Positions 21,934-33,690 of a stretch of DNA of 64,000 bases are shown one piece after another. How positions within the stretch are numbered: the stretch's first letter is position 1; each line of letters begins with the position of its first letter. The DNA is taken from positions 1,379,408 to 1,443,407 of the forward strand of contig NC_012115.1 of the NCBI RefSeq assembly GCF_000021725.1, written 5' to 3'. The notes beneath the pieces were generated by a model. The model had not been told where the DNA came from. It was given only the letters and a program-made list of their open reading frames with translations, and ran no database searches. The position numbers and the translations under genes were made by a program. Origin of the DNA: Nautilia profundicola AmH (GTDB lineage: Bacteria; Campylobacterota; Campylobacteria; Campylobacterales; Nautiliaceae).

Positions 21934-23571
21934 ATGGCAGCAAAAGATGTAGTATACAGCGATGTAGCAAGAAATGAATTATTAGCGGGTGTTGAAAAAC
22001 TCGCAGACGCAGTTAGAGTAACTATGGGTCCAAAAGGTAGAAACGTTCTACTTCAAAGAAGTTTCGGAGCACCTCACATTACAAAAGACGGTGTGTCTGT
22101 TGCAAAAGAAATCGAACTTAAACACCCTGTAGAAAACATGGGTGCACAGCTTGTTAAAGAAGTTGCAAGCAAAACTGCAGATGAAGCAGGTGACGGTACA
22201 ACTACTGCAACTGTTTTAGCGCATGCAGTATTCAAAGAAGGTCTAAAATACATCACTGCGGGTGCAAACCCTGTAGCGGTTAAAAGAGGAATGGATAAAG
22301 CAGTTGAAGCTATTATCGCAGAACTTAAAAAAATGAGCAAAACTGTTGAAAACAAAGAACAAATCGCTCAGGTTGCGACAATATCAGCTAACAACGACAA
22401 AAAAATCGGTGAACTTATTGCCGAAGCTATGGATAAAGTAGGAAAAGACGGTGTTATTACTGTAGAAGAAGGTAAATCACTTCAAGACGAACTTGAAGTA
22501 GTTGAAGGTATGCAGTTTGACAGAGGTTATCTATCACCATATTTCGTAACTGATACTGAAAAAATGGTTGCTGAACTAAATGACGCATATATTTTACTAT
22601 ACGACAAAAAAATCAGCAACATGAAAGATCTATTACCGTTACTTGAGCAAATGGTTCAAGCTGGAAACAAACCGTTATTAATTATTGCTGAAGATATCGA
22701 AGGCGAAGCTCTTGCAACACTTGTAGTAAATAAACTAAGAGGTGTACTAAACGTATGTGCTGTAAAAGCGCCTGGATTTGGTGATAGAAGAAAAGCAATG
22801 CTTCAAGATATCGCAATCCTAACAGGCGGTCAGGTAATTTCTGAAGAGCTTGGTAGAACACTTGAGAGCGCAACATTGGCAGACCTTGGACAGGCTGGAA
22901 GAGTTGTAGTTGATAAAGAAAACACTACAATCGTTGACGGTAGAGGCGATAAAGCGGCTATTGAAGCGAGAATCGCTCAAATCAAAAAAGAAATTGAAGA
23001 GACAACAAGCGATTACGACAGAGAAAAATTACAAGAAAGACTTGCAAAATTAAGCGGAGGTGTTGCTGTAATCAAAGTCGGTGCGGCAACTGAAACTGAA
23101 ATGAAAGAGAAAAAAGACAGAGTTGACGACGCACTTAGCGCAACTAAAGCGGCTGTTGAAGAAGGTATCGTTATCGGTGGTGGTGCAGCAATCCTTAAAG
23201 CAGCTAAAAACATTAGCGTAAACGTAGAAGACGCTGATGAAAAAATCGGTGTTGATATTGTAAAACAAGCAGTAAAAGCACCAATCAAACAAATTGCTAA
23301 AAACGCAGGATTCGAGCCTGGAATCGTTGCTATGAAAGTTGAAGAAGCTGATGAAAACACAGGATTCAACGCAGCAACTGGTGAATATGTTGATATGTTC
23401 AAAGCAGGAATTATCGACCCTACAAAAGTTGAAAGAATTGCTTTACAAAACGCTGTATCAGTAGGAAGCCTGCTTCTTACAACTGAAGCGGCTGTAACTG
23501 AAGTTCCGGAAGACAAACCGGCTCCAGCAGCACCTGACATGGGAGGAATGGGCGGAATGGGAATGATGTAA
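21934..23571 (+). CDS. groEL: Chaperonin GroEL
   Basis: GroEL is the 60-kDa double-ring ATP-dependent protein-folding chamber. The 545-aa protein shows [26 protein letters not shown], and the GGM-rich tail GGMGGMGMM. The gene is complete even though a mobile element starts at its end: the last 19 bases (CGGAATGGGAATGATGTAA) are one copy of the element's flanking direct repeat, so integration rebuilds the final codons. The natural downstream sequence now lies beyond 33690, and transcription probably ends at a terminator brought by the element (23596-23615). Confidence 0.98.
23553..23571. repeat. attL: 19-bp direct repeat at the groEL 3' end
   Basis: CGGAATGGGAATGATGTAA is identical to 33672-33690. 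It covers the last six groEL codons with the stop. The flanking bases differ on both sides (G/C here, T/T at the other copy), so 19 bp is the exact identity. Confidence 0.85.
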
Positions 23572-23595
23572 CCACATTTCCAAAAGCCACAAAAT

Positions 23596-23620
23596 CCCGA
23601 TTTTTCGGGCTTTTTAGCCC
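23596..23620. terminator. Bidirectional terminator at the left end of the element
   Basis: CCCGA-TTTT-TCGGG followed by CTTTTT is a rho-independent terminator for groEL. It overlaps a second hairpin GGGCT-TTTT-AGCCC. On the minus strand the first hairpin is followed by ATTTTG, so it may also stop the leftward element operon ending at 23716. Confidence 0.75.
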
Positions 23621-23648
23621 ACTAAAACGAAAATTTGGTTAAAAAAAA

Positions 23649-23658
23649 TGGTTACACA
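23649..23658 (+). promoter_or_regulatory. Possible integrase arm-type site, left end
   Basis: TGGTTACACA recurs in the same orientation at 33521-33529 (TGGTTACAC) and 33533-33542, next to the integrase gene. Similar words at both ends of an element beside an integrase suggest arm-binding sites. Confidence 0.35.
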
Positions 23659-31233: not shown

Positions 31234-31728
31234 CTATCACTATAAACAATAAAATAACATCAAGAAAAAAGGAAAAAGGCAACGTTCCCGCCCCTTTTTT
31301 CTTTTCTTGTTTCTTCCTTTTTATGATATGTTAGTGTCCCGGAAGTGCCGGGCGGAAGTTAATCGGAGCCCGGCGGCAGGTAGCGTCTATATCAAGTCTT
31401 ATATATTTAGTGTCCGTCACTTTTATAAAATTTGACGGATTCAGAAACCCGGTTTTTTGATATAATTAAAAAAAAGATTAAAAGTAGTCTGACAATAATT
31501 AATCAAATATTAAATAAAGATTAACGCAAAAATTAACATTAAGCAAACCTTAAGAAACAGAATGTCGTATTTTCGGGACTTCCGACGATTTTCATTAATC
31601 CTATATTAAATTAATCTTAATTATTAAATCAATATTAATATTACATTTATTAACTTAATATTAAATACGACTTAATAAAAGGACGAATCCTGCCTTTTCT
31701 TTTTTTCTTGATTTTTTCTTTTATTTTA
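31234..31728. other. Non-coding region between iterons and integrase
   Basis: About 500 bases without a convincing gene. The first part has a GC-rich patch (CCCGGAAGTGCCGGGCGG near 31338-31355) and a degenerate TAGTG palindrome at 31408. From about 31480 it becomes very AT-rich with many TTAAT/TTAATATT words, as in a DNA-unwinding region. An imperfect hairpin with T-run near 31680-31710 could end the integrase transcript. Confidence 0.45.
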
Positions 31729-33498
31729 TTAAAATTCATATTCATCATCGGATTCATCATTATTGTTGTTATTATTAACTGGCTCGTCAATTTTTTTGCT
31801 ATCACGCATATGAAATTCTGTCATACCTAAACCTATTAACTCGTCTTTTAATACTGAATAAAATATATCATACAAATAAAGTGCAGAAATATCGTATTTA
31901 GCCCGCATTTCGTAAAAAAACATTTTTATATCGAATTTCGCAGCTTCCATGTTGTATTCTTTTTCCGCGTCGTTCGCTTCGTCTTTAAGCAATAAATGAT
32001 AATACGTTAAAAGTGATAAACGCTTTTGCTTATATTTACTTTTTAAATAATGTTTTTTAATCCCTTCAAAAGTGTGGGCAAATTGAGCCTCAAACACTTC
32101 GTTTTCAACTTTTAAGTGCTCAGAACATATAGTCTGCATAGTATGCCTAAATCCGTGTCCGCTAACACCTTCGAGTCCGTAGCGTTTTTTAATTCTGTAA
32201 AAAAACTTGTCCATATTTTTTTGGTCGCCTACAATGTATTGTTCGTCCTTGTTATCTTCATAAAATTTTAAAATATTTTTATCAGTATTTTTTTTATATT
32301 TAACAACTTGTTTTAATATTTTTCCTAATATTAAAATTGTGTTAAAAATAGCAAATAAATGTTTTGTTAAATACAATGTATATTCTTCATTATTTTTGCT
32401 TTGCCACCACCAAATTTGAGGGTCTTCATCAGGAACATCTTCGACATAAAGTTTTATTTTTCTTGCGTCAACATATTCATTTTTAATCCTAAAAAAATCT
32501 GATTGTCTTACACCTGTCAACATAAAAAATTTAACTATTAGGCCGAAATAAGCCGTTCGTATAATATCGTAGTCACGTGGAATATATCCGATATAATTTA
32601 AATTTTTTAAAACTTTTTTTTCATCTGTTTCTTTTAACATATCATCAAGGAAAAAGTCTATCGGCGAATGAACAACATCGTTAACATAGTAATGCAAGTT
32701 TTCAAACTCATCTTCCAAATCGTATTTTTCTTTAAATTTTTTAATATACATATATAATATACTATTAGCAATAATATCATTCAATTTTTTATAATATTTT
32801 TGTGCATCAATAAGCCTTTTAAAATGCGTGTAACTTGTAAACTTTAAGTTTTTGCAATCCTTAAAAAACTCAACATATTTATATTGTTTTATAGTTTGAT
32901 ACGTTTCATTATCAATTAACTTTTTATTGTTCTTTAAGTATTGTGCTATTATACGTAAAGTTATTATTGTTTTTTCGACAGTTTTACAATTGTTTTTACT
33001 GCGTGTTTTTGCACCGCCTCTGGCCTTCGCGTTTTGTTTTATTTTTGTAAGTAAATTCGTTATTTCGTCTTCTGTTCCCGGAAATTTATTTGTATGTTTT
33101 AAAATACGTTTTAATGCTAATATATATGTTTGTCTTGTTTTTTCGTTTGCGTATGAATTTGTAAAATGTTCAATTATATCTGATTCAATAACTGAAAGGT
33201 TAACCCGCCCGTTATAATATTCCTTTCTGTTAACATTTTTTACAAACATATTAACTAACCTGTTAATTTCGTTAAGTTCTTTAACTTTATAATTTCCATT
33301 AATAATTTCAAGTTTAACATCTGTAATTTTTTTAAATTTATTATTTAACCTGAAATACAACGCATACGTGCTTTTATTTTTTCCTTTTCTACATTTTAAA
33401 TATATTTTTGCATCTAAAGCATAAAAACTACTTTCATTGTCACTTTTGTTAAATTTTTTGTAAATAATATCAACAATATCTTTGTTTTTTATTTCCAT
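31729..33498 (-). CDS. int: Tyrosine recombinase (integrase) of the element
   Basis: Site-specific recombinase expected to join the element's attP to the groEL 3' end. The catalytic set is complete: R331 in LTGVRQSDFF, a lysine near 368 in WWWQSK, H448 and R451 in HGFRHT, H475 in AHTFEG, and the nucleophile Y484 in KKHYLKS. At 589 aa it is much longer than usual integrases (300-400 aa), with 330 residues before the catalytic domain and about 105 after the tyrosine, ending in a run of asparagines and acidic residues. It is transcribed away from attR. No excisionase gene is recognised, though the RHH protein could serve. Confidence 0.88.
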   Translation of the reverse strand: MEIKNKDIVDIIYKKFNKSDNESSFYALDAKIYLKCRKGKNKSTYALYFRLNNKFKKITDVKLEIINGNYKVKELNEINRLVNMFVKNVNRKEYYNGRVNLSVIESDIIEHFTNSYANEKTRQTYILALKRILKHTNKFPGTEDEITNLLTKIKQNAKARGGAKTRSKNNCKTVEKTIITLRIIAQYLKNNKKLIDNETYQTIKQYKYVEFFKDCKNLKFTSYTHFKRLIDAQKYYKKLNDIIANSILYMYIKKFKEKYDLEDEFENLHYYVNDVVHSPIDFFLDDMLKETDEKKVLKNLNYIGYIPRDYDIIRTAYFGLIVKFFMLTGVRQSDFFRIKNEYVDARKIKLYVEDVPDEDPQIWWWQSKNNEEYTLYLTKHLFAIFNTILILGKILKQVVKYKKNTDKNILKFYEDNKDEQYIVGDQKNMDKFFYRIKKRYGLEGVSGHGFRHTMQTICSEHLKVENEVFEAQFAHTFEGIKKHYLKSKYKQKRLSLLTYYHLLLKDEANDAEKEYNMEAAKFDIKMFFYEMRAKYDISALYLYDIFYSVLKDELIGLGMTEFHMRDSKKIDEPVNNNNNNDESDDEYEF

Positions 33499-33671
33499 TT
33501 TTATTTCCTTTCATTTTTTTTGGTTACACCTTTGGTTACACATTATACTATGGACTTGTAAAAAAAAACGAACACATAAGTAAAAGTTATAACGCTAAAA
33601 AAGTGGTTTTTGCCCGGAAAAAGTGGTTTTTGAGTAGTTTTGCAAGGTTGATATGCTAAAACTCAACCCTT
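33499..33671. other. Right end of the element between integrase and attR
   Basis: It contains two TGGTTACAC words (33521-33529 and 33533-33541) matching one at the left end. It also has AAAAAGTGGTTTTTG repeated at 33598-33612 and 33618-33632, start points 20 bases apart, about two helical turns. These are probable protein-binding sites for recombination or integrase control. Confidence 0.45.
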
Positions 33672-33690
33672 CGGAATGGGAATGATGTAA
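33672..33690. repeat. attR: 19-bp direct repeat
   Basis: CGGAATGGGAATGATGTAA, identical to the groEL 3' end at 23553-23571. Together with the next bases it forms GGAATGA-TGTAA-TCATTCC (33679-33697), an inverted repeat followed by a T-rich stretch. This is the presumed ancestral groEL 3' end hairpin and a plausible integrase core site. Confidence 0.85.

Follow-up and report, generated by a model that had tools for sequence, protein, structure and literature searches.

The DNA immediately downstream of groEL in the deep-sea-vent bacterium Nautilia profundicola AmH raises the question of what lies between two identical sequences, one of which is the end of the chaperonin gene itself. The window analyzed here is a stretch of 64,000 nucleotides (NC_012115.1 positions 1,379,408-1,443,407) from a single-contig genome of 1,676,444 bp, as published (CP001279; PMC2628731). 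A sequence-only reading had proposed that perfect 19-bp repeats bracket an integrated element that uses the groEL 3' end as its attachment site. The repeat, CGGAATGGGAATGATGTAA, is indeed exact and direct, and an exact search found only the two copies listed in Table 1 in the window, against a chance expectation, from base composition, of ~1e-5 copies per genome on both strands. The left copy coincides with the end of the groEL open reading frame, its TAA stop codon included. The repeats enclose 10.1 kb of plasmid-like DNA, and the insertion point is exactly at the groEL stop codon. We interpret this DNA as an integrative mobilizable element (IME) that integrates at the groEL end by means of its own integrase and carries a replacement terminator together with replication and mobilization functions, a reading to which we assign a probability of about 0.88.

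The boundaries of the element are defined by empty sites. Two congeners, one with a complete genome (G001) and one with a partial genome (G002), lack the element, and in both the 19-bp groEL end with its TAA is followed by TCATTCC, the sequence that comes next after the right repeat in N. profundicola. In both, rplS lies directly downstream of groEL, and the gene order groES-groEL-rplS is conserved. The congener alignments begin upstream of groES, show 87% and 85% identity as far as the groEL stop codon, break at the groEL end and resume at position 33672, with an overlap of ~22 bp. Empty groEL sites of precisely this form had been predicted, and their presence supports the assignment of the groEL 3' end as attachment site. 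Relatives with the same 10 kb and no integrase, which the sequence-only reading had named as evidence against itself, were not encountered, as no relative carries these 10 kb; its observation is thus confirmed and its interpretation supported. The groEL 3' ends are empty in 18 of 18 readable Nautiliaceae, which identifies the element as an insertion that arose in the lineage of N. profundicola; its single copy marks the one occupied groEL site among the genomes examined. The N. profundicola groEL gene is intact and 87-99% identical to the groEL genes of relatives. In other Nautiliaceae genera (G007, G014 and G006; loci L017, L022 and L032) an identical 19-bp groEL end precedes a different post-stop sequence; these are possible but unoccupied hosts.

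Table 1 Features of the groEL-associated element of N. profundicola (window coordinates).
Feature	Position	Strand	Basis or remark
groEL	21934..23571	+	Intact; ORF and homology; last 19 bp form the left att core
attL core, CGGAATGGGAATGATGTAA	23553..23571	+	groEL end including TAA; boundary set by empty-site alignment
Element-borne bidirectional intrinsic-terminator-like hairpin, CCCGA-TTTT-TCGGG	23596..23609	.	Terminator scan, both strands
Candidate left arm-type site, TGGTTACACATAATACTA (+ strand)	23649..23666	-	~78 bp from core
Small protein, 121 aa	23716..24081	-	ORF; no family above cut-off
Small protein, 77 aa	24078..24311	-	ORF; no family above cut-off
Orphan protein, 353 aa	24308..25369	-	No family above cut-off; no plasmid match
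MobV (pMV158/NBU)-type relaxase	25582..26934	-	Homology
Candidate oriT, 30-bp perfect palindrome, AGGTGTGGAGTGAGGCCTCACTCCACACCT	27000..27029	.	Centred 80 bp upstream of relaxase gene
Small coiled-coil-like protein upstream of relaxase	27066..27215	-	ORF
Small protein, 125 aa	27294..27671	-	ORF
Small protein, 79 aa	27674..27913	-	ORF
Protein, 252 aa, overlapping rep end	28049..28807	-	ORF; no family above cut-off
Replication protein, P4-like primase-helicase (helicase half)	28776..30572	-	phrog_35045 'DNA primase', E 3.5e-25
Small protein upstream of rep, 55 aa	30574..30741	-	ORF
Candidate replication origin	30933..31233	.	12 TGTAAC repeats, both orientations, in 300 bp
Tyrosine integrase, 589 aa	31729..33498	-	PF00589, E 3e-6, above cut-off; phrog_216 integrase
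Candidate right arm-type sites, two GTGTAACC	33522..33549	-	~122 bp from core; adjoin int promoter region
attR core	33672..33690	+	Exact repeat; native TCATTCC comes next
Re-formed native groEL terminator hairpin at attR	33678..33698	+	Terminator scan; same hairpin in empty sites

The integrase postulated between the repeats is a tyrosine recombinase that scores above the gathering threshold of PF00589 and retains the catalytic residues, namely R (LTGVRQ), HGFRH (HxxR), H (FAHTFEG) and Y (KKHYLKS). It is an orphan with only distant relatives, none of them a close relative with a known site. Searches of plasmids, phages, IMG/VR and 84,980 species genomes returned no relatives, sequence searches of the PDB gave no matches, and the predicted structure, with a pLDDT of 35, was too poor for use. 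Neither the congeners nor the other members of the family have counterparts of the integrase and replication genes, weak or fragmentary integrase homologues excepted. The partial congener genome has, downstream of an ftsE-like gene, a broken integrase remnant with one internal stop and 28% identity to the element integrase (L050:12899-13498, G002:C124). No excisionase was recognised in the element. The genome paper lists GAmH_1472 as an integrase gene with no similarity in GenBank, reports no extrachromosomal elements and makes no mention of groEL (PMC2628731). From its place in the gene order, GAmH_1472 probably encodes the integrase of the element.

Both ends of the element have in common an 18-bp sequence, TGGTTACACATWATACTA, in the same orientation and with one mismatch, a match reached in 0 of 300 shuffles; its full right copy occupies 33532-33549, and the motif GTATWATGTGTAACC is confined to the two element ends. 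In a circular form these repeats would flank the core in the manner of the arm-type integrase sites of a lambda-like attP. The circle would carry an attP core consisting of the 19 bp of the groEL end, and its own tyrosine integrase would recombine this core with attB at the groEL 3' end. Since the exchange takes place between identical sequences, the groEL reading frame is kept in full. The suggestion that the element rebuilds the reading frame must therefore be modified: the crossover lies within sequence common to host and element, groEL is never altered, and it is the terminator that needs replacing.

As seen in the empty sites, the native groEL terminator is a hairpin that extends across the stop codon; the last groEL codons form its 5' arm and the post-stop sequence its 3' arm, and a T-rich tract follows. 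The two arms covary between genomes, for example as CCAGGGATGATGTAA followed by TTCCCTGG, and as GGAATGATGTAA followed by TCATTCC. For 18 genomes, hairpins built from their own arms have a mean energy of -11.9 kcal/mol, versus -9.0 kcal/mol for arms swapped between genomes (permutation p 5e-5, a value from which shared ancestry is not removed). Because the attB core is the 5' arm of this terminator, integration separates the arms, and the hairpin becomes weaker, going from -14.1 kcal/mol at the empty site to -8.5 kcal/mol at attL. Only 25 bp inside the groEL-side end, the element contains the CCCGATTTTTCGGG hairpin with T-rich tails on both strands. On the evidence of these sequences, the element appears to supply a replacement for the split groEL terminator: the bidirectional terminator at the left end would compensate for the separation of the arms, and the native hairpin is re-formed at the right end. 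Thus, attachment sites at gene ends can split a host terminator while preserving the coding sequence, and this element seems to bring a substitute.

All main genes of the element are directed leftward, opposite to groEL. The helicase and iterons noted in the sequence-only reading correspond to the primase-helicase-like protein and to the cluster of TGTAAC repeats in Table 1. The former is 23-29% identical to proteins of small enterobacterial plasmids and 31% identical to a sequence of G024:C17. An excised circle may replicate from the TGTAAC-repeat origin with the aid of this primase-helicase. Neither the replication gene nor the attP junction had a match in viral contigs, and no conjugation, capsid, phage structural or defence genes were recognised among the element ORFs scanned.

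The relaxase, also anticipated between the repeats, is related to pMV158/NBU-type proteins. Its N-terminal ~180 aa are 35-41% identical to plasmid relaxases of Campylobacter, Arcobacter and Bacteroides, some of which are annotated 'NBU/pMV158-type mobilization protein', and its best identity within the Nautiliaceae is up to 69% over 194 aa. In L048, L049, L051 and L052, palindromes precede the relaxase homologues by 58-63 bp, and L053 also has a palindrome. This similar placement makes the palindrome at 27000-27029 a good oriT candidate. A short ORF similar to that upstream of the relaxase gene was discerned by eye ahead of mob in L048, L049, L052 and L053. Mobilization would proceed in trans through the conjugation machinery of another element, with the MobV relaxase acting near the palindrome. 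The locus thus combines a precise site flanked by att repeats, a site-specific integrase of its own (PF00589 and catalytic motifs), and a relaxase and/or oriT, the former assigned by homology and the latter a candidate palindrome, with no mating-pair formation apparatus recognised among the main ORFs, as expected of an IME.

The Nautiliaceae MobV genes just mentioned (L048, L049, L051, L052 and L053, from G001, G007 and G014) have an upstream palindrome, with GTAGTGCGTACGCACTAC in most, and those in L048, L051 and L052 adjoin integrase genes. This suggests that such MobV/integrase loci form a family of mobilizable elements in Nautiliaceae vent bacteria. Like the groEL-associated element, they possess the upstream palindrome and a relaxase, 42-69% identical over the aligned part; in contrast, they are not at groEL, have no homologous replication gene, and the adjoining integrases in the loci read are unrelated. 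Beside the MobV relaxase gene of one locus (L052:10248-16759, G007:C2) lie genes for a Vsr-like nuclease and two DNA cytosine methyltransferases along with McrBC-like genes, apparently a restriction island.

Other identities of the 10.1 kb were weighed. An integrative and conjugative element was rejected, as no conjugation (T4SS) genes were recognised in this length, and so was a temperate prophage: capsid, tail and lysis genes gave no match above chance, a weak holin match (E 0.003) being unconvincing. It is improbable that a phage satellite or the remnant of a prophage, PICI-like in kind, occupies the site instead of a mobilizable plasmid-like element. Staphylococcal PICIs do use the same attachment gene, and the 10-kb size and the P4-like primase-helicase would suit such an origin; however, the ORFs scanned include no capsid, packaging or phage-interference gene, the phage and viral collections contain no match, and the DNA encodes a relaxase of the MobV type, preceded by a conserved palindrome. 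Still further from the evidence is a transposon with a 19-bp target duplication, or a repeat produced by chance or duplication, which the direct repeat alone would fit. The empty sites, which show that the left copy is native groEL, already contradict both, as does the gene content with its tyrosine integrase; the insertion falls precisely at the end of a gene, the core being coding sequence, there are no significant terminal inverted repeats, and the chance expectation given above is minute. This explanation is given practically no weight.

An alternative of a different kind is that a plasmid entered the chromosome once and has since decayed, so that exit is no longer possible. Such an immobile integration would accord with the one occupied genome among those examined, with the lack of a recognised excisionase and with several orphan ORFs. 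Decay would be expected, however, to erode the att repeats and the int, rep and mob genes, whereas the repeats are perfect and the three genes are open reading frames. We consider decay unlikely, albeit worth keeping in mind, and prefer the interpretation as an IME.

The sequence-only reading had asked whether groEL is on record as an attachment site, and it is, in staphylococcal PICIs and SaPIs. In S. epidermidis, SeCISE48 is integrated at the 3' end of groEL, its att site overlapping the final 18 bp of the gene, and islands with the SeCISE48 integrase type are found at groEL in several staphylococci (PMC8125051). SaPI2R, too, has groEL as its insertion site, with att repeats of 20 bp (PMC4457420), and most fusidic-acid islands of S. 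epidermidis lie downstream of groEL (PMC10094739). The use of groEL as an attachment site is therefore already known. New here are the terminator observation and the presence at groEL, in Campylobacterota, of a mobilizable element that had not been described and whose integrase is an orphan. Downstream of 80 sequences from many phyla, either groEL ends or matching tails, a search with an HMM from four sequences and a reach bounded by the locus ends found no integrase. When 399 genomes of the order were searched for GGAATGATGTAA, the matches listed included two other same-strand groups (G303 and G086). Neither is a groEL-inserted element: the second copy in G303 is not a groEL end, and the copies in G086 are within a tandem-repeat gene. 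In the latter locus (L061, G086:C1:1490000-1506000) a coding segment is present five times, at spacings of 2.3-3.4 kb, and the whole resembles a very long repeat-protein gene.

The Nautilia case is probably independent of the staphylococcal groEL elements, and the integrases are likely of independent origin. It is conceivable, and we offer it tentatively, that the stop-codon region of groEL was taken up as a target independently by unrelated integrases of two phyla, because near-invariant coding sequence there doubles as one arm of a terminator hairpin, and that elements at this site carry a replacement terminator, insulating an essential, highly expressed gene. If true, terminator replacement would be a rule that extends beyond the known restoration of coding sequence. 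The locus provides a clean case of groEL insertion with empty sites in congeners, and delimits a mobile element that the 2009 N. profundicola genome paper had missed and that may help to build genetic tools for vent Campylobacterota. It extends the use of the groEL site to another phylum and another class of element, the published cases found being staphylococcal satellites.

Small enterobacterial plasmids (e.g. OW849322.1, 14.6 kb) resemble the Nautilia element in about half of the replication protein, at 23-29% identity, but the plasmid collection searched holds no related integrase. The Bacteroides NBU-type IMEs, with MobV/pMV158-NBU relaxases, have in common with it an integrase, a MobV relaxase with an upstream palindrome, and no recognised conjugation machinery; the Nautilia element differs in its orphan integrase, its groEL target and its P4-like replication protein. 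The staphylococcal PICIs and SaPIs exemplified by SeCISE48 and SaPI2R likewise occupy the groEL 3' end, with repeats of ~18-20 bp over the last codons and groEL unaltered. In contrast to those phage-packaged satellites of Bacillota, with their other gene content, the element described here bears a relaxase and resides in Campylobacterota.
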